From positions 1 to 37,793 of the forward strand of contig JBFMBH010000026.1 of the NCBI GenBank assembly GCA_040755095.1: 37,793 nt of DNA, given 5' to 3'. The translations under genes were made by a program, and so were the position numbers. Below are positions 19,304 through 37,509 of this stretch, one piece after another. This DNA is from Thermodesulfobacteriota bacterium. Lineage in GTDB: Bacteria > Desulfobacterota > Desulfobulbia > Desulfobulbales > JBFMBH01. The notes beneath the pieces were generated by a model. That model saw only the letters and a program-made list of their open reading frames with translations, was not told the DNA's origin and did no database searches. The stretch's first letter is position 1; every line of letters starts with the position of its first letter.

Positions 19304-20055
19304 CCGGCGACGAGGTCATTGCCGCGCTTGATCTTCCCGCGACCGCGCGGGTGGACCGCCGGGTGCCGAAGACGCTGCTCCTGGAGCACGGCGCGCCCAC
19401 CGCTGCCGACAAGCGCCGCATCAACGATGGGATCGAGCAGATCCAGTGGGTGGCGGCCTTGAAGCCCACCACCATCGGCGTGGCCGCGTACCGGGACGAG
19501 GGCCGCGAGTACCTGGAGATCGCGGTGCTTCGGCTGGCGTTCCGGGCCGCGGCCAAGGCGCCCCGGCTCATCGAGCTGCTGCACCGGGCGGTGCCGTACC
19601 CGGTGCTCGCCGTAACCGAGCTGGGTGACCGCCTGAACCTGTCGCTCGCGCACAAGCGTTGGTCCCAGGGCCAGGCCGGGAAAACCGTGCTCGACGGCGA
19701 CCTCGTCTCTGCGGGCGTCCCGCGCGACGGAGAGCCCCACGGGACCGCGTTCGCGGCAGCCCTCGCCCTCGGCCAGCAGCCCCGGGCCTCGCTCCTCGCG
19801 CTTTATCAGGGGTGGATTGACACGGTGCTGGCGCTCGAGGCCGCGCGCCGAACAGGACGATTCGAGATGCTGCCCGCACCCGAGAGCCGGACCGCTCGCC
19901 GCGAGGCGCTCCGGGATTATGCCCGCCTGGAGGCTGAGGCAGCGCGTCTGCGGGTGGTGGCGGCCAAGGAGAAGCAGATGGCGCGGCAGGTGGAGCTGAA
20001 CCTGGAGCTGAAACGCGCCGAGGCTGCCAAAACGGCGGCGCTTGCGCGACTCTGA
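19300..20055 (+). CDS. DUF4391 domain protein (defence operon gene 2)
   Basis: This 251-residue protein starts at ATG 19300 inside the end of the helicase gene (ATGA overlap). It shows the DUF4391 pattern as I remember it: an N-terminal ALDLPATARVDRRVPKTLL..H segment, a central DGIEQIQWVAALKP strand-helix, EYLEIAVLRLAF..AAKAPRLIELLHRAVPYPV, and LNLSLAHKRWS. The tail (about 200-251) is a highly charged helix, likely a coiled coil (LEAEAARLRVVAAKEKQMA). From memory, DUF4391 genes recur between an SNF2 helicase and a Mod methyltransferase, so the protein is probably a structural or adaptor subunit. No catalytic residues can be named. Confidence 0.85.
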   Translation: MTGDEVIAALDLPATARVDRRVPKTLLLEHGAPTAADKRRINDGIEQIQWVAALKPTTIGVAAYRDEGREYLEIAVLRLAFRAAAKAPRLIELLHRAVPYPVLAVTELGDRLNLSLAHKRWSQGQAGKTVLDGDLVSAGVPRDGEPHGTAFAAALALGQQPRASLLALYQGWIDTVLALEAARRTGRFEMLPAPESRTARREALRDYARLEAEAARLRVVAAKEKQMARQVELNLELKRAEAAKTAALARL

Positions 20056-20063
20056 GGATTGGG

Positions 20064-21995
20064 ATGACGATGAAGAAACTGACCGCCAACGACCCCGAGA
20101 CCCGCTCGCCCGATCTTGTCGCCGACAACATCGAGCGGCTGAAGGCGCTCTTCCCGGAGCTGGTCACCGAAGGCCCGGACGGCGTCGCCGTGAACGTGGA
20201 CGTGCTCAAGGCGCTGGTGGGTGATGCGACTGTCACCGACGCGGACGAGAAGTACGGCCTCAACTGGCACGGTAAGCGCCGCGCCCGCCAGCTTGCGCTC
20301 ACCCCCTCCACCGGCACGCTGCGGCCCTGTCCTGAAGAGAGCGTGGACTGGGACACCACGCAGAACCTGATGATCGAGGGCGACAACCTGGAGGTGCTGA
20401 AGCTCCTGCAGAAGAGCTACGCGGGCAAGGTGAAGCTCATCTACATCGACCCGCCGTACAACACGGGCAAGGATTTTGTGTACCCCGACAATTTCCAGGA
20501 CAGCATCAAGAACTACCTGGAGCTGACGGGGCAGGTGGAGGGCGGGAGGAAGATCAGCAGCAACACCGAGGCGAGTGGGCGGTTTCATACGGATTGGCTG
20601 AACATGATGTACCCGCGGCTGCGGCTGGCCAGAAATTTTCTTCGAGATGATGGACTGATACTCATCAGTATCGATGATGCAGAGATCGATAATCTCCGAA
20701 AGCTATGCGCCGAAATTTTCGGTGAAGAGAACTTCCTTGCAAATTTCGTACGCCGAAGGCGCATGGCAACCGGAATGCGCGATACCCCGATCTCCCCAGA
20801 TCATGAGTATGTTGTTGGCTATGCGAAACACCTCGACTCCGTACATCTCTTTGGTTTCGCTCGTCAAGAGACCGATTTCCCGTTTGAGGATCGCCTCGGC
20901 CGCTTCCGAAGCACTGATTTGACCGTGGGAATGACGAAAGAGATGCGTCCGAACCAGTTTTACGCCATCAGAAACCCTCGTACAAGATCGGAATATTGGC
21001 CCCCGAACGAGAGGGTATGGAGATTTGAGCCTTTGACGATGCAAAGGCAAATTGATGACGACAACATCATCTGGCCTGATGACAATCCGAACGGTCGGAT
21101 GTCACGCCCGCGCTTCAAGACGCGATTCGAGGAAGGAAACAACGCCAAGACAAATCCTGTCTCAACGTGGATGGAACAGAGGGGAAGTGTCGCCGATGAC
21201 GACTCATCGTGCGTGGTTTCATTGACGGCTGGGCTCAATCAGGAAGGTACAAAGGAGCTGCGCGAACTCCTGGGCCAGCAACTGCTGGAATATCCGAAGC
21301 CCGTGTCTCTGATCAGAGGGTTGGCAGCCGTTGCCTCTAGGGGCGATGACATCATATTGGACTTCTTCGCTGGCAGCGCGACCATGGGAGATGCGGTGTG
21401 GGATCTGAATAGACGTAATGGTGGCCGCCGGCGGTTTGTTTTGGTTCAGCTGCAGGAGCCGACGGGGCGCACCGATTTCCCATCGATCGCTGACCTTGCA
21501 AAGGAGCGCCTCCGCCGCGCCGCCAAGAAGATCAAAGCCGAGAATCCGACGTTCGCTGGCGACCTCGGCTTTCGCGTCTTCAAGCTCGACTCCAGCAACA
21601 TCCGCGCCTGGGACCCCGACCGCGACGACCTCACCAAGACACTCTTCGACGCCGTGGAGCACCTGAAGCCCGGTCGCACCGAGATGGACGTGCTCTACGA
21701 GCTGTTGCTCAAGCTCGGCCTTGACCTGTGCGTGCCGATGGAGAAGCGCACAGTCGCCGGCAAGGACGTGCATGCGGTGGGCGGTGGCGTGCTCATGGCC
21801 TGCCTCGCCACACGGATCGAGCGGGGCGAGGTGGAGGCGTTGGCGCAGGGCATCGTGGACTGGCACCGGGCGCTGGCGCCGGCCGGGGACACCACCTGCG
21901 TCTTCCGGGACAGCGCCTTCGCCGACGACGTGGCCAAGACCAACCTGGCGGCGATCCTGGAGCAGCACGGCATCGCCAACGTGCGGAGCTTGTGA
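20064..21995 (+). CDS. mod: Type III-like DNA adenine methyltransferase (Mod, beta class; defence operon gene 3)
   Basis: A 643-residue N6-adenine methyltransferase. The motif order is beta class: DPPYNTGKDF (motif IV, about residues 129-138) precedes LDFFAGSATMGDAV (motif I, about 432-445), with the target-recognition region between. Before motif IV stands NLMIEGDNLEVLKLLQ, standard for Mod subunits. ATG 20064 lies 8 bases after the DUF4391 stop; the ATG two codons later is equally possible. Bases from about 20630 to 21470 are clearly poorer in G+C than both flanks, suggesting that the recognition region and motif I side were replaced by recombination. The C-terminal 110 residues (ELLLKLGLDL, AVGGGVLMACL, DDVAKTNLAAILEQ) match the family tail. 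It should protect host DNA against the Res subunit at the operon end. Confidence 0.93.
   Translation: MTMKKLTANDPETRSPDLVADNIERLKALFPELVTEGPDGVAVNVDVLKALVGDATVTDADEKYGLNWHGKRRARQLALTPSTGTLRPCPEESVDWDTTQNLMIEGDNLEVLKLLQKSYAGKVKLIYIDPPYNTGKDFVYPDNFQDSIKNYLELTGQVEGGRKISSNTEASGRFHTDWLNMMYPRLRLARNFLRDDGLILISIDDAEIDNLRKLCAEIFGEENFLANFVRRRRMATGMRDTPISPDHEYVVGYAKHLDSVHLFGFARQETDFPFEDRLGRFRSTDLTVGMTKEMRPNQFYAIRNPRTRSEYWPPNERVWRFEPLTMQRQIDDDNIIWPDDNPNGRMSRPRFKTRFEEGNNAKTNPVSTWMEQRGSVADDDSSCVVSLTAGLNQEGTKELRELLGQQLLEYPKPVSLIRGLAAVASRGDDIILDFFAGSATMGDAVWDLNRRNGGRRRFVLVQLQEPTGRTDFPSIADLAKERLRRAAKKIKAENPTFAGDLGFRVFKLDSSNIRAWDPDRDDLTKTLFDAVEHLKPGRTEMDVLYELLLKLGLDLCVPMEKRTVAGKDVHAVGGGVLMACLATRIERGEVEALAQGIVDWHRALAPAGDTTCVFRDSAFADDVAKTNLAAILEQHGIANVRSL
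20630..21470. other. Lower-GC segment inside mod (target-recognition region)
   Basis: A 60-base line at 20641 contains about 43% G+C and several lines up to about 21360 stay near 50%, whereas the flanking parts of the same gene and operon are near 65-70%. The reading frame stays open across both borders. Codon choice also shifts towards A/T-ending codons here. The boundaries are estimates by eye. Confidence 0.65.
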
Positions 21996-22007
21996 GGGGG
22001 GTAGAAC

Positions 22008-23723
22008 ATGGCCGCGACCAACTTCAACACGGAAAACCGTACCTATCGGCAGCTCCTCGGCAACGGCCTGACCTACTTGATTCCGCGCTTCCAGCGCGAC
22101 TATTCCTGGGGCGAGGAAGAATGGGAGGACCTGTGGGCGGACATCCTCGGCACCTTGCCCGCCGACGGCGAGCCGGCCCATTACATGGGCTATCTGGTCC
22201 TGCGAACCACGGACAACCGCGTTTTCGAGGTCATCGACGGCCAGCAGCGCCTGACGACCATCAGCCTCATCGCGTTGGCTACCATGCGCCTGCTCAAGAG
22301 GTCCGCGGCCGAAGGCGGGCACGCCGCGGCCAATCAAAAGCGGCTCGACCAGTTGCGGGCCAGCTACATCGGCTACCTCGACCCGGTAACCCTTACGGCG
22401 CGGAACAAGCTCTCGCTGAACCGCAACAACGATCCCTACTACCGCGATTACCTGGTGCCCCTGGCCGATCATCTGCCGCAGCGCGGTTTTCCCGCCTCGA
22501 CCCATGCCATGCGCAAGGCCTTCGAATGGCTCGAGCGGCGCCTGCGCGAGCACGTCAAGGGCCAGATCGACCCCGGCGTGGCGCTCGCCCAGTTCGTCGA
22601 GACCATGAGCGACAAGCTCTTCTTCACGGTCATCACCGTGGCGGACGAGCTCAACGCCTACAAGGTGTTCGAAACCCTGAACGCGCGCGGGGTGCGTCTG
22701 TCGGCCACCGATCTCCTGAAGAACTACCTGTTCTCGGTACTGGCGCGGGATCAGGAGACTCAACACCAGATGGACGAGCTGGAGCGGCGCTGGGAGGCCA
22801 TGGTGGGGCGCCTGGGCAGCGAAAGCTTCCCCGACTTTCTGCGCATGCACTGGAACAGCCGGCAGAGCTTTGCTCGACAGTCGGAACTGTTCAAGACCAT
22901 CCGTCATCGTATCCAGAACCGTGAAGCCGTGTTCGCGCTGCTCCGCGACATGGATGAAGACATCGACACCTACCTGGCGCTCACCCAGCCGGAGGGTGCG
23001 CAATGGCCCCCGACCTGGAGGCAAAGCGCTCAGGAGCTGCGTATGTTCTCGGTGCGCCAACCCTTCCCGATGTTGATGGCAGCCAGGCGCCGGCTCGCCG
23101 ACAGCGATTTCGAAGGCCTGCTGCGCGCCACGGTCGTGATCGCCTTTCGCTACAACGTCGTCGGCGCCCAGCATACCGGGGAGCAGGAGCGCGTGTATCA
23201 CAGCGTGGCCGCGCAGCTGCACCGCGGCGAGGCGGCGACCCTGGCCCAGGTGTTGGAGGGTTTGCGCCCGATCTATCGGGGTGACGATGCCTTCCGCGCC
23301 GACTTCGCCGAGAAGAGCGTCAAGACCACGCAAAGCCGCAACGCCAAGATCGTGCGCTACGTCCTCGGCAAGCTGGAAAGGCAGGCCGGCGGCATTGACT
23401 TCGACCCGGACTCGCCCGCATACACCATCGAGCATGTCCTTCCCCAATCGCCCGAGGTCGGCTGGGATACGTTCCACGACCGCGACTTGGGTGTCTTCGT
23501 CTTTCGGCTGGCGAACATGGTGATGCTCGAGACCGGCAAGAACCGCGACCTGGGCAACCGGCCCTATGCCGAAAAGCGGCCGGTGCTGCAAACGAGCGCC
23601 GTCCTTCTCACGCGCACGCTGGCGGAAGAGAACGCCGAGTGGACGCCCGAACGGCTCGACGCCCGGCAGCGGCAGCTCGCCAACCTCGCCACGGCCGTTT
23701 GGCGTGTCGCCCAGCTTTCGTGA
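22008..23723 (+). CDS. DUF262/DUF1524 protein, GmrSD-like nuclease (defence operon gene 4)
   Basis: This 571-residue protein joins a DUF262 domain (ParB/sulfiredoxin-like nucleotide-binding fold: YLIPRFQRDYSW, then VIDGQQRLTTISLIAL) to a C-terminal DUF1524 HNH-type nuclease region (YTIEHVLPQSPEVGW, RLANMVMLETGKNRDLGN). A middle helical region holds AYKVFETLNARGVRLSATDLLKNYL, the usual DUF262 continuation. Both halves are those of GmrSD-type IV restriction enzymes, which cut modified phage DNA using nucleotide hydrolysis. The HNH His (IEH) and the Asn near its end are present, so it looks active. It starts 12 bases after mod stops, inside the operon, a place where type III systems normally have nothing. 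Confidence 0.9.
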   Translation: MAATNFNTENRTYRQLLGNGLTYLIPRFQRDYSWGEEEWEDLWADILGTLPADGEPAHYMGYLVLRTTDNRVFEVIDGQQRLTTISLIALATMRLLKRSAAEGGHAAANQKRLDQLRASYIGYLDPVTLTARNKLSLNRNNDPYYRDYLVPLADHLPQRGFPASTHAMRKAFEWLERRLREHVKGQIDPGVALAQFVETMSDKLFFTVITVADELNAYKVFETLNARGVRLSATDLLKNYLFSVLARDQETQHQMDELERRWEAMVGRLGSESFPDFLRMHWNSRQSFARQSELFKTIRHRIQNREAVFALLRDMDEDIDTYLALTQPEGAQWPPTWRQSAQELRMFSVRQPFPMLMAARRRLADSDFEGLLRATVVIAFRYNVVGAQHTGEQERVYHSVAAQLHRGEAATLAQVLEGLRPIYRGDDAFRADFAEKSVKTTQSRNAKIVRYVLGKLERQAGGIDFDPDSPAYTIEHVLPQSPEVGWDTFHDRDLGVFVFRLANMVMLETGKNRDLGNRPYAEKRPVLQTSAVLLTRTLAEENAEWTPERLDARQRQLANLATAVWRVAQLS

Positions 23724-23792
23724 AGGAATGCCGTGAAGCGCCGCCCGTCGAGCTCCGGCCCGACTGGTACTCCTGACGAGGAGGTGTCAGCC

Positions 23793-24854
23793 ATGATCGA
23801 GTATCGTACCGGCGACATCCTGAAGGACGATGCAGTGGCCCTGGTCAACACCGTCAACTGCGTCGGCGTGATGGGAAGAGGGGTGGCCCTGCAGTTCAAA
23901 AAGGCCTTCCCCGAGAACTTCAAGGCGTACGCCGCAGCCTGTCGGCGCGGCGAGGTGCAGCCGGGGCGGATGTTCGTGTACGAGACCGGGCGCCTTACGC
24001 CGCCCCGCTATGTCGTCAATTTCCCCACCAAGCGCCACTGGCGCGGCAAGAGCCGGATCGAGGACATCGACGCCGGTCTCGCTGCCCTGGCCGCCGTGAT
24101 CCGCGATCGGCGCATCGCGTCCGTGGCCCTGCCGCCCCTGGGGAGCGGCCTGGGCGGGCTTGCCTGGCAGGATGTCAAGCCACGCGTCGAGGCGGCCCTG
24201 GCGGGGCTCGCGGACGTGCGCGTGGTGGTCTACGAGCCGCGGGAAGGGCTGACGCCGGGTGTGGTGGTCCGGAACCGGGAGGTGCCGGTCATGACCGCCG
24301 GCCACGCGGCCCTGGTGGAACTGGTGGCCCGCTACCTCGACGGGCTGCTCGACCCGTTTGTCACCCTGCTCGAGATGCACAAGCTCATGTATTTCCTGCA
24401 GGAGGCGGGAGAGCCGCTGCGGCTGCGCTTCAAGCCCGCCCTTTACGGCCCGTACGCCGAGAACCTGCGCCACGTGCTCCACGCCATCGAGGGTCACCTG
24501 ACCGCCGGCTATGCCGACGGCGGAGACGCCCCGGCCAAGCCGATCTTCCTGGTGCCCGGGGCTGCGGCGGACGCCGCGGCGTTTCTTGCGGGTCTCCCGG
24601 GCACCCGAGAACGGACCGCGCGGGTGGCGGAACTGGTGCAAGGGTTCGAATCCCCCTTCGGGCTGGAGCTCTTGTCCAGCGTCCATTGGGTGATGACCCG
24701 TGAGACGGCGAAGCCGCTCGGCGAGGTGGTGGAACGGACCTACGCCTGGGGCGAGCGCAAGCGGCAGTTCACGCCCCGGCAGATTGGCATTGCCGCCGCG
24801 GTGCTGGCCCGCAAGGGCTGGGTGGCCGGCCCGGCCTTGGACGCACCCGCATGA
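23793..24854 (+). CDS. darG: DarG-like macrodomain protein, ADP-ribosyl-DNA hydrolase type (defence operon gene 5)
   Basis: A 353-residue protein with an N-terminal macrodomain (1-150): NTVNCVGVMGRGVALQFK (ADP-ribose loop), VNFPTKRHW with the Lys associated with DNA-ADP-ribose removal in DarG, and ALPPLGSGLGGLAW (phosphate loop). The C-terminal half (LLEMHKLMYFLQEAGEPL, YGPYAENLRHVL, ESPFGLELLSSVHWV) is the conserved DarG tail and looks somewhat like SocA/Panacea-type domains. DarG normally neutralises DarT, which ADP-ribosylates thymidine in single-stranded DNA. No DarT gene lies in this window. ATG 23793 follows a strong GAGGAGGTG site; a 70-bp gap precedes it and its stop overlaps the res start (ATGA). 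The odd partnership makes the role uncertain. Confidence 0.88.
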   Translation: MIEYRTGDILKDDAVALVNTVNCVGVMGRGVALQFKKAFPENFKAYAAACRRGEVQPGRMFVYETGRLTPPRYVVNFPTKRHWRGKSRIEDIDAGLAALAAVIRDRRIASVALPPLGSGLGGLAWQDVKPRVEAALAGLADVRVVVYEPREGLTPGVVVRNREVPVMTAGHAALVELVARYLDGLLDPFVTLLEMHKLMYFLQEAGEPLRLRFKPALYGPYAENLRHVLHAIEGHLTAGYADGGDAPAKPIFLVPGAAADAAAFLAGLPGTRERTARVAELVQGFESPFGLELLSSVHWVMTRETAKPLGEVVERTYAWGERKRQFTPRQIGIAAAVLARKGWVAGPALDAPA

Positions 24855-27826
24855 AGCTCCTTTTCGAGCCCAACCTCGACTACCAGCTCCAAGCCATCGA
24901 GGCGGTCTGCGACCTCTTCCGGGGCCAGGAGGTCTGCCGGACGGAGTTCACCGTTACCAGGTCAGCGCTTGGGGGTGCGGTTCTGCCTGGCATGGAAAGC
25001 AACCTGGGTCTTGGCAATCGCCTGACCCTCCTGGACGACGAGCTCCTGGGGAACCTGAACAGCGTCCAGATCCGCAACGGTCTGGCCCCGTCGGCGACGC
25101 TTGCCTCCGGCGACTTCACCGTGGAGATGGAGACCGGTACCGGCAAGACCTACGTTTACCTGCGCACCATCTTCGAGCTCAACCGGCGCTTCGGCTTCAC
25201 CAAATTCGTGATCGTGGTGCCGTCCATCGCCATCAAGGAAGGCGTCTACAAGGCCCTCCAGATCACCGAAGACCACTTCAAGGGCCTCTATGCCGGCGTG
25301 CCCTGCGAGTACTTCCTCTACGACTCGGCCAAGCTCGGCCAGGTGCGCAACTTCGCCACCAGCGCCCAGGTCCAGATCATGGTGGTGACGGTCGGCGCCA
25401 TCAACAAGAAGGACGTCAACAACCTCTACAAGGACAGCGAGAAGACCGGCGGCGAGAGGCCCATCGACCTCATTCGGGCCAGCCGGCCGATCGTTATCGT
25501 GGACGAGCCGCAGAGTGTGGACGGCGGCCTCCAGGGGCGGGGCAAGGAGGCGCTCGACGCCATGAATCCGCTCTGCACCCTGCGCTACTCAGCCACCCAC
25601 GCGGACAAGCACCACATGGTCTATCGGCTTGATGCGGTGGACGCCTACGAACGGCGGCTGGTGAAGCAGATCGAGGTGGCGGCGGCCACGGTGGAGGACG
25701 CCCACAACCGGCCCTATGTGCGCTTTCTGAAGCCGGTCCTGCGCGGGAAGATGGTGTTCGGCGCCGAGGTTGAGATCGATGTCCAGACAGCCACAGGGGT
25801 ACGCCGGCAAACAAAGACCGTGCAACCCCTCGACAACCTGGAACAGACCACAGGACGCGCGGTCTACCGGGATGTGCTGATCGGGCAGGAGATCCGGGCC
25901 AGGAAAGGCGACGCGCTCATGGAGCTGCGCTTCCCCGGCGGCGAGCAGTTCCTGCGCCTCGGGCAGGCCTGGGGCGATGTGGGTGCGCTGGCCGTGCAGC
26001 GCGAGATGATCCGGCGCACGATCAGGGAGCACCTGGACAAGGAGAAGCGGCTGCGGCCCCAGGGCATCAAGGTGCTCACGCTCTTCTTCATCGACGAGGT
26101 GGCCCGCTACCGCCAGTACGACGCCGACGGCAACCCGGTACAGGGCGAGTACGCCCGGATCTTCGAGGAGGAGTACCGGCGGCTGGCCAACCACCCCGAC
26201 TACCGGACGCTCTTTGCCGAGGTGGACCTCTCCCGCGCCGCCACGGAGGTCCACGACGGCTATTTCTCTGTGGACAAGCGGTCGAAGCGGGTGGTGGACA
26301 CCGAGGAGGGGAACCAGGCCGGCCGCGACGCCGCCGAGCAGGCGTACAACCTGATCATGAAGGACAAGGAGAAGCTGCTCTCGTTCGAGACGCCGCTCAA
26401 GTTCATCTTCTCCCATTCGGCGCTCCGGGAAGGCTGGGACAACCCCAACGTCTTCCAGGTTTGTACCCTCCGCGACATCCGCACCGAGCGCGAGCGGCGC
26501 CAGACCATCGGCCGGGGGCTCCGGCTGTGCGTCAACCAGGACGGCCAGCGGCTGCGGGGGTTCGAGGTGAACACCCTCACCGTGGTGGCGACGGAGAGCT
26601 ACGAGGAGTTTGCCGCCAATCTGCAGAAGGAGATCGAGGAGGAGACCGGCGTCCACTTCGGCATCGTCGAGCCGCACCAGTTTGCCGCTGTCACGGTGAC
26701 GGCCGAGGACGGCAGCACCATGCCGCTGGGCGTCGAGCCCTCGAAGGCGCTCTGGGAGCACCTGCGGGAGCAGGGGTATATCGACTCCCGGGGGAAGGTC
26801 CAGGATGCATTGCGCACCGCCCTCAAGGCGGACGCGGTGAAGATCCCGGCGGCCTTCGCGCTTCAGGCCGGCCAGATCACCCCGATCCTGCGCAAACTCG
26901 CCGGCCGCCTCGAGATCAAGAACGCCGACGAGCGGCGCCAGGTACGCCCGCGCCAGGCCATCCTCCACAGCCCGGATTTCAAGGCGCTCTGGGACCGCAT
27001 CAAGCACAAGACCACGTACCGGGTGGAGTTCGACAACGAGAGGCTCGTAGAGAGCTGCATCAAGGCTCTGCGCGACGCGCCCCCGATCCCGAAGACCCGC
27101 CTGCAGTGGCGCAAGGCCGAGATCGCCATCGGCAAGGCGGGCGTGGAGGCCAGCGAGCGCCAGGGGGCACAGGCCATCGTCCTCGACGACGCCGGCATCG
27201 AACTGCCGGACCTCCTGACCCAACTCCAGGATCAAACCCAGCTCACCCGCCGCACCATTTGTCGCGTGGTGACCGCGAGCGGGCGGCTCGACGACTTCAA
27301 GCGCAATCCCCAGGCATTCATCGAGCTGGCCGCCGAGGCCATCAACCGCCGCAAGCGCCTGGCCGTCGTGGATGGCATCAAGTACCAGCGCCTCGGCGAC
27401 GAGCACTACTACGCCCAGGAGCTCTTCGAGCAGGAGGAGCTGACCGGCTATCTCAGAAACATGCTCGCCGAGACCAGGAAGTCCGTTTACGAGCAGGTGG
27501 TCTACGACTCGGCCACCGAAGCGGCATTCGCCGACGGCCTGGAGAAGAACGAGGCGATCAAGGTCTACGCCAAGCTGCCGGGCTGGTTCACCGTGCCCAC
27601 ACCTCTGGGTCCTTATAACCCGGACTGGGCGGTACTCGTGGAGAAAAACGGCGCGGAACGGCTCTACCTGGTCGTGGAGACGAAGAGCGGCCTGTTCACT
27701 GACGACTTGCGGGAGAAGGAAAGCGCGAAGATCGAGTGCGGCAAGGCGCATTTCAAGGCGCTGGGGGGGCGGGAATCGTCGGCGCGGTATGTCGTCGTCC
27801 GGTCCGTCGACGAGATCCTTGCGTAG
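24851..27826 (+). CDS. res: Type III-like restriction endonuclease subunit (Res; defence operon gene 6)
   Basis: A 991-residue helicase-nuclease. The N-terminal half is a superfamily 2 translocase: METGTGKTYVYL (motif I, about residues 95-106), VDEPQSVDG (motif II with the DEPQ variant), YSATHAD (III), REGWDNPNVFQVCTL (V) and RQTIGRGLRLC (VI). The last about 130 residues contain a PD-(D/E)xK endonuclease: YNPDWAVLV followed by LYLVVETKSG, giving Asp, Glu and Lys of the active site. The length matches type III Res subunits (about 900-1000). It is coupled to darG by a 4-base overlap and ends the operon. Cleavage should require Mod as specificity partner, an inference from the family. Confidence 0.92.
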   Translation: MKLLFEPNLDYQLQAIEAVCDLFRGQEVCRTEFTVTRSALGGAVLPGMESNLGLGNRLTLLDDELLGNLNSVQIRNGLAPSATLASGDFTVEMETGTGKTYVYLRTIFELNRRFGFTKFVIVVPSIAIKEGVYKALQITEDHFKGLYAGVPCEYFLYDSAKLGQVRNFATSAQVQIMVVTVGAINKKDVNNLYKDSEKTGGERPIDLIRASRPIVIVDEPQSVDGGLQGRGKEALDAMNPLCTLRYSATHADKHHMVYRLDAVDAYERRLVKQIEVAAATVEDAHNRPYVRFLKPVLRGKMVFGAEVEIDVQTATGVRRQTKTVQPLDNLEQTTGRAVYRDVLIGQEIRARKGDALMELRFPGGEQFLRLGQAWGDVGALAVQREMIRRTIREHLDKEKRLRPQGIKVLTLFFIDEVARYRQYDADGNPVQGEYARIFEEEYRRLANHPDYRTLFAEVDLSRAATEVHDGYFSVDKRSKRVVDTEEGNQAGRDAAEQAYNLIMKDKEKLLSFETPLKFIFSHSALREGWDNPNVFQVCTLRDIRTERERRQTIGRGLRLCVNQDGQRLRGFEVNTLTVVATESYEEFAANLQKEIEEETGVHFGIVEPHQFAAVTVTAEDGSTMPLGVEPSKALWEHLREQGYIDSRGKVQDALRTALKADAVKIPAAFALQAGQITPILRKLAGRLEIKNADERRQVRPRQAILHSPDFKALWDRIKHKTTYRVEFDNERLVESCIKALRDAPPIPKTRLQWRKAEIAIGKAGVEASERQGAQAIVLDDAGIELPDLLTQLQDQTQLTRRTICRVVTASGRLDDFKRNPQAFIELAAEAINRRKRLAVVDGIKYQRLGDEHYYAQELFEQEELTGYLRNMLAETRKSVYEQVVYDSATEAAFADGLEKNEAIKVYAKLPGWFTVPTPLGPYNPDWAVLVEKNGAERLYLVVETKSGLFTDDLREKESAKIECGKAHFKALGGRESSARYVVVRSVDEILA

Positions 27827-28361: not shown

Positions 28362-29873
28362 ATGAAGGTCGATCTGGGACCGGTCACGCGGCTGGAGGGG
28401 CATCTCAACATCCAGACCACGGTGACCGACAACGTCATCACCGATGCCCGCTGCATGGGCGAAATGTTCCGAGGCTTCGAGGAGATCCTCCGGGGCCGGG
28501 ATCCTCTGGACGCCCAGCAGATCACGCAGCGCATCTGCGGCGTCTGTCCCTATGCCCACGCCATCGCCTCCTGCTATGCCCAGGAAGCGGCCTTCGGCAT
28601 CACCCCGCCGGCCAACGGCCGTATCCTCCAGAACCTCATCCAGGGCGCCAACCACCTCTACGACTATCCCCTGCACTTTTATCAGCTGGCCGCCCTGGAC
28701 TTCGTGGACGTCACCGCCATCCTCGGCTACACCGGCGCCGACCCGGAGCTGGTCAAGGTCAAGGCCTGGGTGGCGGCGGAGCTGGCGGCCAAGAAGCCGT
28801 TTCCCGCCGCCCCCTTCCTGCCCCGGCTGGAAGGGGCGTATCTGGCCGATGCCGAGGCCAACATCGGTGCCCTCAAGCATTACCTGGAGGCCCTGGCCAT
28901 CGAGCAGAAGGCCAACCGGGCGTCGGCCATCTTCGGCGGCAAGTTTCCCCACGCCACGGCCATCTTCCCGGGCGGCTGCAGCCAGCCGGTGAGCATCGAC
29001 CTGGTGGCCACCTACCAGGCTTTGATCCTGGAGGTGCGGGAGTTCCTGGTCCACAAGTACCTGCCGGACGTGCTGGCGGTGGCCAAGGCCTTCCCGGAGT
29101 ACTGGGAGATCGGCGCCTCCAAGGGTGGCTTCCTGTCCTATGGCCTGCTGCCCTTCGGGCCGGAGGCGGGTGCCAAGCGGCTCTTTGCCCCGGGGATCCT
29201 GCTTGATGGCAAGGTGCAGACGGTGGATTTCGGCCGCATCACCGAGGATGTCCTCTACTCCCGGTACAGGAGCCCCAGCCACCTGCCGGTGCGGGACAGT
29301 GCCCTGGATCCGGAGCCGAGCAAGGCCGGGGCCTACACCTGGATCAAGGCGCCGCGCTACGACGGCCGGATGGTGGAGGTGGGGCCGGCGGCTCGGGTGC
29401 TGGTGGACTACCACCAGGGCAACAACCCGACCGTCAAGAAGCTGGTGGACAGCCTGGCCGCCGAGCTGGGCATCACGCCCAGCCATTTCAACTCCGTCCT
29501 GGGCCGCCACGCCAGCCGGGCGATCTCGGCCGTGGTCATCGCCGACTTCCTGCTGGCCGAGACCGAGCGCCTGGATCCGGGCCAGCCCACCATGGCTGAT
29601 CTCGCGATCCCGGCCACCGGCGAGGGCTTTGGCGCCACCGATGCCTCCCGGGGGGCGCTCCTCCACTACATCCGCCTGGCGGATCACAAGATCGAGCAGT
29701 ACGCCTGCGTGGTGCCCACCACCTGGAATGCCTCGCCCCGGGATGATCGGGGCCAGCCCGGGGCCATGGAATCGGCCCTCATCGGCACCCGGGTGGCGGA
29801 TCCCCCATCCCAGATCGAGGCCGGCCGCATCGTCCGCTCCTTCGATCCCTGCCTGGCCTGCGCCATCCATTGA
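28362..29873 (+). CDS. [NiFe] hydrogenase large subunit without C-terminal extension
   Basis: The 503-residue product carries the Ni-Fe active site. The L1 motif RICGVC (C59, C62) and the terminal L2 motif DPCLACAIH (C497, C500, H503) supply the four ligands; EMFRGFEEILRGRDP and FPGGCSQPV are further group 1-type signatures. The protein ends exactly at His503, whereas most large subunits have about 15 more residues removed by a HybD-type protease after Ni insertion. H2-sensing (HoxC/HupV) and a few other hydrogenases share this lack. ATG 28362 follows AGGAGGCGAGGC. The small subunit and a heme-type chemoreceptor follow in one operon. No accessory (hyp) genes are in the window. L2 codons are TGC, so this is not a selenoprotein. 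Confidence 0.93.
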   Translation: MKVDLGPVTRLEGHLNIQTTVTDNVITDARCMGEMFRGFEEILRGRDPLDAQQITQRICGVCPYAHAIASCYAQEAAFGITPPANGRILQNLIQGANHLYDYPLHFYQLAALDFVDVTAILGYTGADPELVKVKAWVAAELAAKKPFPAAPFLPRLEGAYLADAEANIGALKHYLEALAIEQKANRASAIFGGKFPHATAIFPGGCSQPVSIDLVATYQALILEVREFLVHKYLPDVLAVAKAFPEYWEIGASKGGFLSYGLLPFGPEAGAKRLFAPGILLDGKVQTVDFGRITEDVLYSRYRSPSHLPVRDSALDPEPSKAGAYTWIKAPRYDGRMVEVGPAARVLVDYHQGNNPTVKKLVDSLAAELGITPSHFNSVLGRHASRAISAVVIADFLLAETERLDPGQPTMADLAIPATGEGFGATDASRGALLHYIRLADHKIEQYACVVPTTWNASPRDDRGQPGAMESALIGTRVADPPSQIEAGRIVRSFDPCLACAIH

Positions 29874-29888
29874 CCAGCCCTTTCAGCC

Positions 29889-29914
29889 GGCCGGCGGGGT
29901 CACTGCTGCCGGCC
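29889..29914 (+). repeat. Inverted repeat between the hydrogenase subunit genes
   Basis: GGCCGGC (29889-29895) and GCCGGCC (29908-29914) form a perfect 7-bp GC stem with a 12-base loop in the 58-bp gap between the two subunit genes. It could modulate relative expression or RNA processing; no T-run follows, so a strong terminator is unlikely. Confidence 0.4.
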
Positions 29915-29931
29915 CGGACCGCGGAGGAGCC

Positions 29932-30852
29932 ATGCTGAACCGCCGCACCTTTCTCAAAATCGCCGCCAGCCTCAGCGCCGCTTTTGCCCTGCCGGCCCTG
30001 CCGGAGCCGGTGGCCGCAGCCTTGCAGGCCGTGGATCCCCGGGCGGTGCCCAAGCTCATCTATCTCCAGGGCCTGTCGTGCACCGGCTGCTCCATCTCCC
30101 TGCTCCAGGCCCAGTCGCCGTCGCCGCTCAGCCTCATCACCGACTACTCGCAGCTGGTGTTCCACGCCGACCTTTCCGCCGCCTCCGGTCATCTGGCCAT
30201 GGAGGTCATCGAGCGCCATCTGAGCGGCAAGGCCGGGGACTATGTCCTGGCTCTGGAAGGGGCGATCCCGGACGGCATGCCCCTGGCTTGCACCATCGGG
30301 GAGAAGACCCTGGCCCAGCTCTTGGAGGCCGCGGCCACCACCATGAGCGCTGCGGTGGCGGTGGGGGCCTGCGCCTCCTATGGCGGCATCCCGGCGGCCG
30401 AGGGCAATCTCACCGGCGCCGTGGGCCTCCGGGAGTTCTTCCGTCGCCGGCAGATCGACAAGCTGGTCATCGATATCCCCGGCTGCTCGGTGCATCCGGA
30501 CTGGGTCTGGCACTCGGTCATCCATCTGGTCAAGGTGGGGCTGCCGGCCCTGGAGGAGAACCGGCCGGCGCTTTTCTTCTCCCGCAAGGTCCACGAGACC
30601 TGCCCCCGCTACCACGATTTCCAGCAGGAGATCTTTGCCACGCGCCTGGGGGATCCGGGCTGCCTGTTCAAGCTCGGCTGCCTGGGGCCGGAGACCAAGG
30701 CTGACTGCGCCAACCGCTGGTGGAACGGCGGCCAGACCTGGTGCATCGACGCCAACGCCCCGTGCATCGGCTGCGCCTCGCCCGATTTCGCCCTCCGGCG
30801 GCAGTTTCCCTTCTACCGGCTCGGCGAGCGAGCGCTTTCCAGGAAAGGGTGA
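29932..30852 (+). CDS. [NiFe] hydrogenase small subunit, Tat-exported
   Basis: A 306-residue iron-sulfur subunit. The N-terminus holds a Tat signal, RRTFLK (4-9) with a hydrophobic stretch to about residue 30, which would carry the folded heterodimer to the periplasm. Cluster ligands are visible: proximal C50, C53, C147 and C185; distal H221, C224, C244 and C250; medial C259, C271, C278 and C281. Position 271 is Cys where standard group 1 enzymes have Pro, so the medial cluster is probably [4Fe-4S]. The proximal site is CTGCS, without the extra Cys of O2-tolerant enzymes. No C-terminal membrane anchor exists. The gene follows the large subunit (reverse of the usual small-large order) and precedes the chemoreceptor by 5 bp. 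The start follows GGAGGAGCC. Confidence 0.93.
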   Translation: MLNRRTFLKIAASLSAAFALPALPEPVAAALQAVDPRAVPKLIYLQGLSCTGCSISLLQAQSPSPLSLITDYSQLVFHADLSAASGHLAMEVIERHLSGKAGDYVLALEGAIPDGMPLACTIGEKTLAQLLEAAATTMSAAVAVGACASYGGIPAAEGNLTGAVGLREFFRRRQIDKLVIDIPGCSVHPDWVWHSVIHLVKVGLPALEENRPALFFSRKVHETCPRYHDFQQEIFATRLGDPGCLFKLGCLGPETKADCANRWWNGGQTWCIDANAPCIGCASPDFALRRQFPFYRLGERALSRKG

Positions 30853-30857
30853 ATCCC

Positions 30858-32276
30858 ATGGCCAGCTCTTCCCTCTCCCGCTTTTCGGTGGCTACCCGCA
30901 CGGTGGGGGCCATTTTTCTGGTCCTGGCCCTCTCCCTTGCCCTCTCCGCGGTGCTGGTGATCGGCTTCGCCACCGCCGAGATGGAACGGGGCTACCTGCA
31001 ATCGGTGGCCAACCTCGCCCATTCCCTGGAGCAGGGCACGGCCGACTCCCTGGAGCGCGGCCAGATGAAGAACTTCAAGGAGCTGTTGGCCAGCCAGCGC
31101 CAGATTGCCGGTGTCCTCGATGTCTCTCTTTATGACCGCCAGGGCCGCTTGAACCTGTCCTCCTCCTCGGAGGACGTGGCGGACAAGCGCCTGGCGGAGG
31201 AGCTGTGGCAGGCAGTACAGGCGGAGCGCCAGCCGGTAACCCGCCAGGACGCGGGGGCGGTGCGGGTGCTCATTCCCCAGTTCGCGGACGGCGACTGCGT
31301 CCGCTGCCATCCCGGCTGGGCCATCGGCGAGATCGGCGGCGTCCTGTCCGTCACCTGCGACCTCAGCGGCCTCCGGGATTCATCCCGCCGGCTGCAGCGG
31401 GGACTCGCCGCCGGCGCGCTGGTGCTCCTCCTCGTCACCAGCGGCGTTCTCTTCCTGCTGTTGCGGCGGATCGTCATGGCGCCCCTGCACGGCATCATCA
31501 CCGATCTGTCCCAGACCGCGGAAGAGGTGGACGGGACGTCCCGCCGGGTGTCCGAGGCCAGCCAGAACCTGGCGGATGCCGCCTCCCGCCAGGCCGCCTC
31601 CCTGGAGGAGACCAGCTCGTCCCTGGAGGAGCTGTCCGCCATGACCCGCCGCAATGCCGACAGTGCCGAGATGGCCAACACCCTGGTGGCCGACTCCGTC
31701 GAGGTGGTCGATGCCGCCAACCGCTCCCTGGATCAGCTGGACCATGGCATGTTTGAGATCACCAAGGCCAGCGAGGAGACCTTCAAAATCGCCAAGGCCA
31801 TCGACGACATCGCCTTCCAGACCAACCTCCTGGCCTTGAACGCCGCCGTGGAGGCGGCCCGGGCTGGCGAAGCCGGCGCCGGCTTCGCGGTTGTCGCCGG
31901 CGAGGTCAAGAGTCTGGCCTCCCGCTCCGCTGACGCGGCCAAGAGCTCGGCCCAGCTCATCGAGGGCATCCTGGCCAAGATCCGGGAAGGACAGGACAGC
32001 GCCGAGGCCACCCGCAAGGCCTTTGCCGAGGTCACCGACCGCTCCGGCAAGATCGCCGGGCTCATCGGCGAGATCGCCGTCGCCTCCAAGGAGCAGGCCT
32101 CGGGCCTTGACCTCCTCAACTCCACCGTGCTGGAGCTGGACAAGCTCACCCAGCAGAGCTCGACCCACGCCGCCGACTCGGCCGCCATCGCCGGCGAGAT
32201 GGAGGACCAGTCCGGCCACCTGCAGGCCTTCATCGCCGAGCTGGTGAGCCTCGTGCGGGGGAGCAGACAGACTTGA
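30858..32276 (+). CDS. Methyl-accepting chemotaxis protein with CxxCH heme motif in periplasmic sensor
   Basis: A 472-residue chemoreceptor. A first membrane helix (about 15-40) and a second (about 185-203) enclose a periplasmic sensor of about 145 residues that resembles the single-Cache/heme-PAS type and carries CVRCH (C147-H151), a c-type heme site close to the second helix. A very short linker with a MAPL motif replaces a full HAMP domain. The signalling rod follows, with the tip IDDIAFQTNLLALNAAVEAARAGEAG...FAVVAGEV broken here for length, that contacts CheA/CheW. ATG 30858 lies 5 bases after the hydrogenase small-subunit stop, with AAAGGGTG as ribosome site. Heme-containing receptors of this kind are known in Geobacter. 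Redox or H2 sensing is inferred from the context. Confidence 0.9.
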   Translation: MASSSLSRFSVATRTVGAIFLVLALSLALSAVLVIGFATAEMERGYLQSVANLAHSLEQGTADSLERGQMKNFKELLASQRQIAGVLDVSLYDRQGRLNLSSSSEDVADKRLAEELWQAVQAERQPVTRQDAGAVRVLIPQFADGDCVRCHPGWAIGEIGGVLSVTCDLSGLRDSSRRLQRGLAAGALVLLLVTSGVLFLLLRRIVMAPLHGIITDLSQTAEEVDGTSRRVSEASQNLADAASRQAASLEETSSSLEELSAMTRRNADSAEMANTLVADSVEVVDAANRSLDQLDHGMFEITKASEETFKIAKAIDDIAFQTNLLALNAAVEAARAGEAGAGFAVVAGEVKSLASRSADAAKSSAQLIEGILAKIREGQDSAEATRKAFAEVTDRSGKIAGLIGEIAVASKEQASGLDLLNSTVLELDKLTQQSSTHAADSAAIAGEMEDQSGHLQAFIAELVSLVRGSRQT

Positions 32277-33893: not shown

Positions 33894-34982
33894 TCAGGAG
33901 GCGGTCATGGCATGGACAGCCCGGGCCGCCACCCCGGCGAGCACGGAGTGCCCCGGGGCCAAGGCCAGCTGCCGGGCCTGTTGCGGGGTGGCGAAGGCGG
34001 CCAGGGGAAAGCCGCAGTCCAGGGTCACCTTGAGAAAGGGGCCGGCGGGCACGAGGTGGCGCACTGTGGCAGGCAGCAGGTTGGCGTCGGCCGCCGGGGC
34101 CGACAGCGCGGCGGGCTGCCGGAGGACCACATCCTCGGGCCGGATGCCCAGCAGCACCGGCTCGCCAGATCGGGCCTCGCCCGTGGCCTGCAGGGTCAAG
34201 CCGGCGGCCGCCACCTGCAAGAAGCCGTTGACCTGGGCCAGCACCCGGGCCGGCACCAGGGTCTCCATGCCCACAAAGGCGGCCACCTCGGCATCCCGGG
34301 GTCGGGCCAGTACCTGGTCCGGGGTGTCGAGCTGCCGCAGCGCGCCGCCGATGATCACCCCCAGCCGGTCTGCCAGCCGCACCGCCTCGCTGCGGTCGTG
34401 GGTAACGAGGATCGCCGTGGTGCCACCGCCCCGCAGGACCCGGTCCAGGTCGGTCAGAAGCTCCTCCCGGGTGGGAGGATCCAGACCGCCAAAGGGCTCG
34501 TCCAGAAACAAAAGCTCCGGCTCGTAGGCCAGGGCCCGGGCCAGGCTCACCCGCTGGGCCTCGCCGCCGGACAGGGTACGGGCGGCCCGCCCGGCCAAAG
34601 GGGCGATGCCCAGGCGGTCCAGGGCCGCCACCACCCGCTCGTGCCGCTCCCGGCCACCGACGCCCCGGAGCTTGAGGCCGGTTGCCACGTTGTCGGCCAC
34701 GCTGCTGTTGAGCAGGAGCGGCTCCTGGAAGACCACCGCCAGCCGGCGGCGGTAGGGGAGCAGCTCACCCCGGGCCACCGGCCGGCCGTGGAGGCAAAGC
34801 TGGCCGCCGGCCAAGGGCAGGAGGCCGGCCAGGGCCAGGAGCAGGCTGGACTTGCCGGCGCCGTTCGGGCCGATGAGGGCCAAAACCTCGCCCTTGGCCA
34901 CAGCCAGCTCGCCAATCCGGAGCACGGTGGCGCCACCCCGGGCCAGCACCAGATCGTAAGCCGCCAGGAGAGGCGCCGTCAC
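33894..34982 (-). CDS. tupC: Tungstate ABC transporter, ATP-binding protein
   Basis: A 362-residue ATPase that powers the TupAB tungstate importer on the cytoplasmic side. Motifs: GPNGAGKSS (Walker A, about 38-46), Q-loop VFQEP, LSGGEAQR (ABC signature), LLFLDEPFGGLD (Walker B/D-loop) and VTHDRSEA (switch His). After the nucleotide-binding domain, about 110 residues form a TOBE-type domain (LLGIRPEDVVL, LLPATVRHLVPAG) as in molybdate/tungstate ATPases, where it can bind oxyanion for feedback. The start overlaps the tupB stop by 4 bases (34979-34982). It is the last gene of the minus-strand operon; no other gene follows for 145 bp. Confidence 0.9.
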   Translation of the reverse strand: MTAPLLAAYDLVLARGGATVLRIGELAVAKGEVLALIGPNGAGKSSLLLALAGLLPLAGGQLCLHGRPVARGELLPYRRRLAVVFQEPLLLNSSVADNVATGLKLRGVGGRERHERVVAALDRLGIAPLAGRAARTLSGGEAQRVSLARALAYEPELLFLDEPFGGLDPPTREELLTDLDRVLRGGGTTAILVTHDRSEAVRLADRLGVIIGGALRQLDTPDQVLARPRDAEVAAFVGMETLVPARVLAQVNGFLQVAAAGLTLQATGEARSGEPVLLGIRPEDVVLRQPAALSAPAADANLLPATVRHLVPAGPFLKVTLDCGFPLAAFATPQQARQLALAPGHSVLAGVAARAVHAMTAS

Positions 34983-35677
34983 CGCCGCCGCTCCTGCTGC
35001 TGCACCCAGGTGAGAACCGCGTTGACCGCCAGCATCAGGAAGAGCAGGATGACGCTCAAGGCAATGGCGATGTCAAAGTTGCCCCGGGATGTCTCCATGA
35101 CCGTGGCGGTGGTCAACACCCGGGTCTGTCCCCTGATGTTGCCGCCCACCATGATCGAGGCGCCGATCTCGGAGATGACGCCGCCGAAGCCAGCCATGGC
35201 TGCAGCCAGGAGGGGCAGGCGCGCCTCCCGCACCAGGAGCGCCACCAGCTGCAGGCGGCTGGCGCCCAGGGCCAGGATCTGCAGCCGCAGCTTCTCCGGC
35301 AGACTGCCCATGGCCGCAAGACTGATGCCTGCCACGATGGGCGTGGCGATGAGGGACTGGGCCACCACCATGGCCAGGGGGGTGTAGAGGATGCCCAAAA
35401 AGCCCAGGGGACCGCTCCGCCAGAGGAGGATTGACACAACAAGTCCCACCACCACGGGCGGCAGCCCCATGCCGGTGTTGACGATGCTGATGCAGAGCCG
35501 GCGGCCCGGGAAGCGAGCCAGGGCCAGGAAGGCGCCGGTGGCCAGACCCAGGACCAGGCTCACCAGCGTGGCAGCTCCGGAAATCTTGAGGGAGAGGAGG
35601 GCCACCGCCAGCACCTCCGGATCCCCGGCGAACAGCAGGCGGAAGGCTTGGCAGATCCCTTCCCAGATCAGATCCAT
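34979..35677 (-). CDS. tupB: Tungstate ABC transporter, permease
   Basis: A 232-residue inner-membrane permease. Hydrophobic helices are evident, among them SGAATLVSLVLGLATGAFLAL, GMGLPPVVVGLVVSILLW and IAIALSVILLFLMLAVNAVLTW. The EAA-type loop that contacts the ATPase lies around KLRLQILALGASRLQLVALLVREARLP, and FGGVISEIGASIMVGGNIRGQTR is the conserved TupB segment. Length is typical (about 230). It lies between tupA (21-bp gap) and tupC (4-base overlap), giving a standard tupABC order. Confidence 0.9.
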   Translation of the reverse strand: MDLIWEGICQAFRLLFAGDPEVLAVALLSLKISGAATLVSLVLGLATGAFLALARFPGRRLCISIVNTGMGLPPVVVGLVVSILLWRSGPLGFLGILYTPLAMVVAQSLIATPIVAGISLAAMGSLPEKLRLQILALGASRLQLVALLVREARLPLLAAAMAGFGGVISEIGASIMVGGNIRGQTRVLTTATVMETSRGNFDIAIALSVILLFLMLAVNAVLTWVQQQERRR

Positions 35678-35698
35678 GGCCTCACCGGATGACTCCGC

Positions 35699-36544
35699 TC
35701 AGCGGCCCAGCTCCTCGACCTTCTTGCCGGCGTCCGGGAAGAAGAGCGGGGAGCCGAAGCGGTCCACCCCGAAGGTCCTGATCATTTCCTGGGTGGCCGG
35801 CGCCACCATGAAGTCGGCAAAGGCCTTGCCGCCGGCCACGTTCACCTTGGGGAAGCGGCTGCCCTCCAGCTCGATGACGTGGTAGACATTGAGCAGCCCC
35901 TTCTCCCCTTCCACCAGGATCTCCAGGGCCAGATTCTTGCGGGCAGCCAGATAGGTCCCCCGGTCGGCCAGGGTGTAGCCACCCTTCTCGCTGGCCACCG
36001 ACAGGGTCTGGCCCATGCCCAGCCCGGTCTCCTGGTACCAGGCCCCGGCCGGGGACAGGCCGGCCTCCTTCCAGAGCTTCTGCTCCTTGGCGTGGGTGCC
36101 GGACTTGTCGCCGCGGCTCATGAACAGGGCGCCCGTGGTCGCGATCTTGCTCAGGGCCAGTGCCGCGGTGGCGCTGCCTCTGATGCCGGCCGGGTCGGCC
36201 GCCGGCCCCACCAGGACGAAGTCGTTGTGCATGACCAGCCGCCGGTTGGCGCCAAAGCCGGCCTCCATGAACCTCTTCTCCGCCTCCGGCGAATGCACGA
36301 GCAGCACATCCGCCTCCCCCTTTTCGCCCATGGCCATGGCCTGGCCGGAGCCCACCGCGATGGTCTTGACGGTGATGCCGGCCTCCGCCTCGAAGATGGG
36401 GGTAAGCAGATCCAGCAGCCCGGAATCCTGGGTGCTGCTGGTGGTGGCGAGGATGATGGCCTGGGGCTCAGTGGCACCGGCCAGCGGAGGGGACAGCAGG
36501 AGCGCGGCCAGAAAGAGCGCGGCAGCAACGAAACGTCTGTTCAT
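35699..36544 (-). CDS. tupA: Tungstate-binding periplasmic protein
   Basis: A 281-residue binding protein that captures tungstate in the periplasm. A signal peptide covers residues 1-24 (MNRRF, hydrophobic core, LAGA). The family-defining oxyanion motif TTSSTQDSGLLD follows at about 34-45, then VGSGQAMAMGEKGEADVLLVHSPEAE and MHNDFVLVGP.ADPAGI, all TupA hallmarks, and RGDKSGTHAKE, another ligand loop. ATG 36544 is set by the signal peptide and overlaps the end of the upstream regulator by 4 bases; the much longer open frame to 37663 is not real. Specificity for tungstate over molybdate is inferred from the TTTS-type motif. Confidence 0.92.
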   Translation of the reverse strand: MNRRFVAAALFLAALLLSPPLAGATEPQAIILATTSSTQDSGLLDLLTPIFEAEAGITVKTIAVGSGQAMAMGEKGEADVLLVHSPEAEKRFMEAGFGANRRLVMHNDFVLVGPAADPAGIRGSATAALALSKIATTGALFMSRGDKSGTHAKEQKLWKEAGLSPAGAWYQETGLGMGQTLSVASEKGGYTLADRGTYLAARKNLALEILVEGEKGLLNVYHVIELEGSRFPKVNVAGGKAFADFMVAPATQEMIRTFGVDRFGSPLFFPDAGKKVEELGR

Positions 36545-37479
36545 GAGCTTTCTCCACGGTTGGGGTTTTTCGGGTACATGATGCGGCCGGCGTCGGCCAG
36601 ATCGTATCCCCAGAAGCCGGCCGCGGCGGTCCGGAAGCTGTCGGCCCGGAGCACCGCGAGAAGATCCTGGACCGGCCGCTGGAAATAGGTTTCCTGGAGC
36701 AGCACCAGATCGAAGCGCTCGTCGGTCACCGGCAGGAAATGGAGACCCAGCTGAAGGGCAACGCCACCGGTGGCGAGACCAGTGTCTGCCTCCCCGGCCA
36801 GCACCGCCAGCCCCACCTCGAGATGGGTGCAGACCTCCCGCCCGTAGCCAGCCACTGCGCTGCCTTCCACGCCCGCCTCCGCAAGGAGCAGATCCAGGAG
36901 CACCCGGGTGCCGGCGCCGCCCTGGCGGTTCACCAGGCGCACCCCCGGCCGGGCCAGGTCGCCGGCGCCCTGGATCCCCAGCGGGTTGTTGGCCGCGGCG
37001 AGCCAGCCCAGACGGCGGCGAAACAGGTTGACCACCACCGGCTGGCCGGGCAGAGGATGGCGAGCCAGCCAGGGAAAGTTGTAGTCGCCGCTTTCCGGAT
37101 CCAGGAGATGGGACCAGGCCAGATCGGTATGGCCAGCACGCAAGGCCCGCAAACCGGCGGTGCTGCCGGTGGTGGCGCTGAAGATGAAGCTTTCCGGATG
37201 GGCCTGGTGGAACTGGCCCAGGAGCAGGTCGAGAAGCGGATCGTTGCTGCCGGCGGCCAGAAGGCCGGCGCCCACCTGGCGGCTCTTCTCCCGGGCCTGA
37301 GCGAGTCCTGCCCGGGCGTCTTTTTCCAGCCACTCGTCCAGAAGCCGCCGGGGAAAGACCCACTTGCCGGTCAGCCGGCTGCCCGGCAGCCGGCCGGCCT
37401 TGACCAGGGCGTAGACCTGCTTCTCGTGGATCCCCAGGTAACGGGCCACCTCTTTGGTGTTGAGAAGCTCTTCGGTCAT
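36541..37479 (-). CDS. HTH/substrate-binding-domain regulator of the tungstate operon
   Basis: A 312-residue regulator. Residues 3-50 are an excisionase/MerR-like helix-turn-helix (LLNTKEVARYLGIHEKQVYALVKAG, then KWVFPRRLLDEWL). The rest is a periplasmic-binding-protein-like domain (SNDPLLDLL, FSATTGSTAGLRAL, TDLAWSHLLDPESGDYN, VNRQGGAGTR, TGLATGGVAL) related to the PBP_like_2 family fused to ModE-type regulators. It therefore likely binds molybdate, tungstate or a cofactor-derived ligand in the cytoplasm and controls its own operon. ATG 37479 follows AGGGGAAAGCC; a start at 37500 lacks a site. Its end overlaps tupA by 4 bases. Ligand and sign of control are inferred. Confidence 0.85.
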   Translation of the reverse strand: MTEELLNTKEVARYLGIHEKQVYALVKAGRLPGSRLTGKWVFPRRLLDEWLEKDARAGLAQAREKSRQVGAGLLAAGSNDPLLDLLLGQFHQAHPESFIFSATTGSTAGLRALRAGHTDLAWSHLLDPESGDYNFPWLARHPLPGQPVVVNLFRRRLGWLAAANNPLGIQGAGDLARPGVRLVNRQGGAGTRVLLDLLLAEAGVEGSAVAGYGREVCTHLEVGLAVLAGEADTGLATGGVALQLGLHFLPVTDERFDLVLLQETYFQRPVQDLLAVLRADSFRTAAAGFWGYDLADAGRIMYPKNPNRGESS

Positions 37480-37497
37480 GGCTTTCCCCTGCCGAAA

Positions 37498-37509
37498 CAT
37501 GCACGCATG
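37498..37509. promoter_or_regulatory. Palindrome upstream of the tungstate operon, candidate operator
   Basis: CATGC (37498-37502) and GCATG (37505-37509) form an inverted repeat with a 2-base centre, in the leader between the predicted transcription start and the ribosome site of the regulator gene. The position suits a repressor roadblock by the regulator encoded next to it; this is inference. Confidence 0.4.

Follow-up and report, generated by a model that had tools for sequence, protein, structure and literature searches.

The window analysed here, an entire contig of 37,793 bases (C26) from a host genome of 4.5 Mb, carries on its plus strand three tightly spaced genes for a [NiFe] hydrogenase large subunit, a [NiFe] hydrogenase small subunit and a methyl-accepting chemoreceptor (MCP), in that order. 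The genes and their features are as follows.

28362–29873, plus strand: [NiFe] hydrogenase large subunit, 503 aa (PF00374, E = 2e-143; Pfam/NCBIfam)
28530–28547, plus strand: L1 motif RICGVC (residues 57–62) with Ni-Fe ligands C59 and C62 (sequence)
29844–29870, plus strand: L2 motif DPCLACAIH (residues 495–503) with ligands C497 and C500, stop directly after (sequence)
29932–30852, plus strand: [NiFe] hydrogenase small subunit, 306 aa (Oxidored_q6, NiFe_hyd_SSU_C, Tat signal)
29938–29958, plus strand: Tat motif NRRTFLK (sequence; PF10518; RR conserved among the clade's small subunits)
30841–30848, plus strand: AGGAAAGG, likely ribosome-binding site of the MCP gene, within the 3' end of the small-subunit gene (sequence)
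30858–32276, plus strand: heme-containing MCP, 472 aa (MCPsignal, E = 3e-39; topology)
30912–30968, plus strand: TM1 of the MCP (residues 19–37; hydropathy)
31065–31067, plus strand: Met70 of the conserved SLERGQM, predicted distal heme ligand, equivalent to GSU0935 Met60 (sensor alignment, 3b47 match)
31296–31310, plus strand: CVRCH c-type heme site (residues 147–151; sequence, topology)
31404–31460, plus strand: TM2 of the MCP (residues 183–201; hydropathy)
31695–32150, plus strand: cytoplasmic signalling domain of the MCP (residues 280–431; PF00015)

Pfam and NCBIfam confirm the families that an earlier note on this DNA had assigned to the packed plus-strand genes, and the MCP ATG indeed follows the small-subunit stop codon after 5 bases (30853–30857). 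Nothing informative came out of scans for promoters and terminators. No cytochrome or membrane-subunit gene lies within the cluster, as the same note had pointed out in arguing for a missing electron acceptor. The absence stands, but it is weak evidence, because operons of soluble periplasmic NiFe/NiFeSe hydrogenases often contain no acceptor gene. Upstream, a defence-like island (16106–27826, plus strand) encodes an SNF2-type helicase, DUF4391, a type III methyltransferase, GmrSD/HEC-06, a DarG-like macrodomain protein and a type III restriction enzyme; no DarT was recognised beside the DarG-like protein. On the minus strand, an ABC transporter operon with a solute-binding protein and an excisionase-type HTH/PBP-like regulator (33894–37500) resembles tungstate/molybdate uptake.

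The nearest solved relatives of the large subunit are [NiFeSe] hydrogenases (PDB 4kl8 and 1cc1). The protein matches NF045520 and also NF033181, the latter at 568.9 bits against a curated cut-off of 600, and its L2 residue is Cys, not selenocysteine. All four Cys ligands of the Ni-Fe site are present, and the Ni-Fe ligands are kept throughout the 43 members compared of the receptor-linked clade described below, with R57, C59 and C62 invariant (43/43). The small-subunit ligands predict three [4Fe-4S] clusters (C50, C53, C147 and C185; H221, C224, C244 and C250; C259, C271, C278 and C281), the medial one with four Cys, as in [NiFeSe] enzymes. These Cys residues are kept in the 44 members compared, save C53 (93%). 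In the small subunits of a divergent subgroup (L170 and L188), the second Cys of the proximal CxxC is apparently Asp or Glu (CSGD, CSGE). Hydropathy gives no transmembrane segment in either subunit and no C-terminal membrane anchor in the small subunit. HypD, the component of the Hyp machinery that was searched for, was found in the host genome.

The stop codon directly follows the last nickel-site His (H503), leaving the large subunit without a C-terminal propeptide. Respiratory [NiFe] enzymes have this propeptide, and it is absent in the H2-sensing groups 2b and 2d and also in 4c, 4e and 4g (PMC7294309). The enzyme thus shares with the periplasmic group 1a/[NiFeSe] hydrogenases of the HysAB type its closest sequence kinship, Tat export, the lack of an anchor and the four-Cys medial cluster, but it differs from them in that the large subunit comes first, L2 has Cys, the cleavable propeptide is absent, the NCBIfam cut-off is not reached and a heme transducer gene lies downstream. 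The host genome encodes a second group-1 large subunit (L057:3250–4911, contig C14), which has a propeptide, Cys at L2 and an in-frame TGA in L1 (RFCGV-TGA-TSVH); one TGA in the N-terminal part also appears in the search rows of several order-mates of the host. This TGA possibly encodes selenocysteine; the RNA fold downstream of it is not unusual (z −0.23).

Among hydrogenases that act as sensors, HoxBC/HupUV (group 2b), which work with the kinase HoxJ, resemble the present enzyme in lacking a propeptide and in having three [4Fe-4S] clusters, found in the regulatory hydrogenase (RH) and predicted here from ligands (PMC7294309, PMC5665086). Those enzymes are cytoplasmic and act on a soluble kinase, whereas the present one is Tat-exported, group-1-like in sequence and paired with a transmembrane heme receptor. 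We therefore reject membership of group 2b, and the best reading is that the hydrogenase works like a regulatory hydrogenase outside that group. By output, the nearest precedent is the putative chemotactic [FeFe] group C2 of HydDB, proposed to act through MCPs (PMC5037454). Group C2 is an unrelated enzyme class, with no periplasmic heme Cache partner mentioned there (PMC5037454), and membership was likewise rejected: the present protein is a PF00374 [NiFe] protein and the H-cluster domain was not found.

The third protein has an MCP signalling domain with the conserved hairpin. Since CVRCH lies between TM1 and TM2, the heme site is predicted to be periplasmic, which agrees with its earlier assignment to a periplasmic sensor. 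Kinship of the sensor with known heme domains is faint in sequence: a single phmmer search against the PDB returned spurious alpha-Rep matches only, the heme-Cache family PF21563 scored 22.4 bits against a curated 27, and a profile search ranked GSU0582 (3b47) first, at a weak E of 0.41, the GQM Met and CXXCH being in register. Profile and predicted fold were both needed. The fold, predicted with a pLDDT of 91, matches the Cache domains of GSU0935 (3b42, E = 1.5e-5), GSU0582 and Tll0287, and the Met70–His151 spacing of 81 resembles that of 84 between Met60 and His144 of GSU0935 (PMC8396549). In its periplasmic single-heme Cache-type domain, Met/CXXCH spacing and MCP output, the receptor resembles GSU0935/GSU0582 (Mcp40H-20, sCache_heme, Tll0287) and Desulfovibrio DcrA (PMC8396549, PMC12889525); in contrast, no dedicated electron donor is described for those receptors in the literature searched, and the sequence similarity is weak, below the Pfam cut-off. 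On the modelled fold, we assign the sensor to the redox-switching GSU0935/GSU0582 type, with a covalent heme and a Met switch predicted from CXXCH and Met70. In GSU0935 and GSU0582, Met is bound to the reduced heme and released on oxidation, with potentials of −251 and −156 mV (PMC8396549), which H2 can reach.

Conservation of the cluster was examined beyond the first orthologues, in a scan of species-representative genomes and a sample of the phylum. Each orthologue with 68–73% identity has the same order, with the small-subunit gene and then a CxRCH receptor gene downstream. In total, a related hydrogenase with the large-subunit gene ahead of the small-subunit gene precedes a homologous transducer at 50 loci (47 chemoreceptors and three CheA-like kinases), although these loci were gathered by similarity to the window's hydrogenase and close relatives among them are not independent. 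The main table, which counts each locus once, provides 43 of the 50, and in it every propeptide-less large-small locus with enough downstream sequence had a transducer; the other seven (L188, L206 and L208–L212) came from other searches. At two loci (L207 and L213) the hydrogenase is present but the receptor is missing, and at L066 and L167 the contigs end too early for receptor presence to be judged. One locus (L061) has two hydrogenase pairs and two receptors. The carriers belong mainly to Desulfobacterota and relatives, and also to Verrucomicrobiota, Planctomycetota, Riflebacteria and Campylobacterota, at least five phyla. The earlier note had staked its hypothesis on a neighbourhood conserved in relatives, and on this point the hypothesis holds.

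The propeptide is absent in all large subunits of the receptor-type clade, which end at the last nickel-site His. Among the 85 other relatives, 83 have the propeptide and nearly all are in small-large order; the remaining two (L094 and L116) end in Gln and form a separate branch. None of the 85 has a receptor within 4.5 kb downstream, although some of these contigs end soon past the gene. In the large-small loci surveyed, the absence of the propeptide thus coincides with the large-small-transducer order. In one genome (G353), an orphan heme receptor lies roughly 6.7 kb downstream of a propeptide-bearing hydrogenase. With 50 paired loci against 0/85, we reject a chance or merely local adjacency, whose probability we consider negligible. 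The receptor heme may instead sense NO or another gas, the hydrogenase merely keeping it reduced or being functionally separate. Related heme-Cache receptors do respond to NO, which sCache_heme domains fused to signalling modules bind (PMC12889525), and GSU0582 and GSU0935 bind both NO and CO (PMC8396549). A separate function, however, leaves the recurrent pairing over several phyla unexplained, and we regard gas sensing as very improbable.

A large-subunit tree of 131 rows groups the receptor-linked rows together with two truncated contigs (SH-aLRT 96). In a more careful tree of 77 rows, which is unrooted, a single branch (UFBoot 90, SH-aLRT 96) separates the propeptide-type rows from the rest, and the receptor-less L207 and L213 are nested among receptor-linked loci, as losses would be. 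In the reverse direction, a search of 395 genomes of the phylum with a sensor profile gave 33 hits with E < 1e-25. Such a hydrogenase adjoins 24 of them, 23 by position plus L188, whose hydrogenase is divergent and propeptide-less, and all of the 18 strongest; the other nine lie away from such a hydrogenase. At L195:3388–8020, where no hydrogenase is nearby, an orphan heme sensor-HAMP protein that lacks a signalling domain precedes a Cache-HATPase protein, a CheX-like protein and a response regulator.

Pairwise distances of the large subunit correlate with those of the small subunit (r = 0.96), the sensor (0.89) and the signalling hairpin (0.40); shared ancestry feeds all three values, and what matters is the contrast between them. 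Among the 42 transducers scanned, MCPsignal occurs in 39, HAMP in 24, and Hpt together with HATPase_c in three; downstream of the one of these three that was checked lie CheX and a response regulator. The sensor is thus retained while the signalling output is swapped. These results bear on a more general redox or energy taxis, in which the hydrogenase would feed a periplasmic cytochrome pool and the receptor would read the redox state of the pool, not H2 specifically. Soluble periplasmic hydrogenases commonly use pool cytochromes, which favours such a scheme. The Geobacter relatives of the receptor are also described as redox sensors (PMC8396549). On the other hand, hydrogenase and sensor co-diverge side by side while outputs swap, and propeptide loss separates the lineage from its respiratory relatives, so that we consider pool sensing unlikely.

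Nearly all members other than the heme-less ones retain CXXCH, and very few of those with one heme lack the redox-ligand Met. In two receptors (L063:10503–12134 and L211:5494–7131, minus strand), CXXCH and the GQM/GEM Met were lost together, and both loci keep the hydrogenase; other transducers have two hemes and lack the Met. Because of these exceptions, the redox switch in this form cannot apply to every member. The existence of heme-less members makes contact signalling the main rival explanation: the hydrogenase would dock on the Cache domain and H2 turnover would reshape it, as proposed for HoxBC-HoxJ, with the heme being structural or setting a threshold. A Cache fold is still predicted for the heme-less L211 sensor, and RH binds its kinase tightly (PMC5665086). 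Since the heme-less receptors belong to a single small pair in the large-subunit tree, and CXXCH and Met are so widely kept elsewhere, we give contact signalling only a minor share of the probability, and direct electron transfer to the heme remains the likeliest mechanism.

Flagellin-domain genes were found in 38/38 genomes tested. Within the phylum sample, all 21 system-bearing genomes have flagellin, compared with 217 of 374 others (a background of 60%; p = 1.7e-5, relatedness ignored), and the host genome has flagellin and 17 CheW-domain matches besides HypD. One genome, taken as Desulfurivibrio alkaliphilus AHT2 (G004), has two systems; this species was first described as non-motile (PMC5016858) and is a motile vibrio in a 2025 paper (PMC12142623). 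L209, in which the hydrogenase is directly followed by a two-heme MCP, appears, partly on the basis of homology, to be GAmH_0978-0979 of Nautilia profundicola Am-H, an anchorless NiFeSe-type enzyme named the second uptake hydrogenase (PMC2628731). This published uptake enzyme is probably a sensor.

We consider it probable that the three genes encode a dedicated chemoreceptor for H2 in the periplasm, whose heme is reduced when H2 is oxidised; this is the reading that best fits the conserved pairing, the loss of the propeptide, the intact chemistry and the redox-type sensor. Both hydrogenase subunits would be exported together through Tat. H2 would be oxidised at the Ni-Fe site, and electrons would travel through the three [4Fe-4S] clusters and on to the Cache domain's c-type heme. 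Met70 would bind the reduced, low-spin heme and be released from the oxidised heme, and this switch may act through TM2 on the signalling domain and on CheA activity, so that the cell would steer by H2 or by local H2/redox conditions. We infer physical contact and direct electron transfer between hydrogenase and receptor, and likewise H2 taxis and the sign of the response. The H2- or redox-taxis hypothesis of the earlier note is thereby supported by the order at 50 loci, the propeptide-less lineage, co-divergence, the GSU0935/GSU0582-type heme domain and flagellin in all system genomes tested, but heme reduction does not hold as the sole route, given the two heme-less receptors.

In the open-licence literature searched, we found no description of a [NiFe] hydrogenase-MCP operon of this kind, which is not proof of absence, and the literature searched describes neither a molecular receptor for H2 taxis nor a dedicated electron donor for heme-c chemoreceptors. 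The hydrogenase-MCP module offers a testable answer to both. We hold it somewhat better than even that these loci represent a widespread family of periplasmic sensory [NiFe] hydrogenases that hand electrons from H2 straight on to a transmembrane chemoreceptor's heme; the ligand of the receptor would then be an electron from a dedicated enzyme partner. The carriers include H2-living bacteria of hydrothermal vents, soda lakes and sediments. Some enzymes annotated as respiratory, such as that of N. profundicola, are probably sensors, which would alter genome-based predictions of H2 metabolism, and the pairing over several phyla points to a so far unrecognised mode of extracellular H2 sensing and steering.
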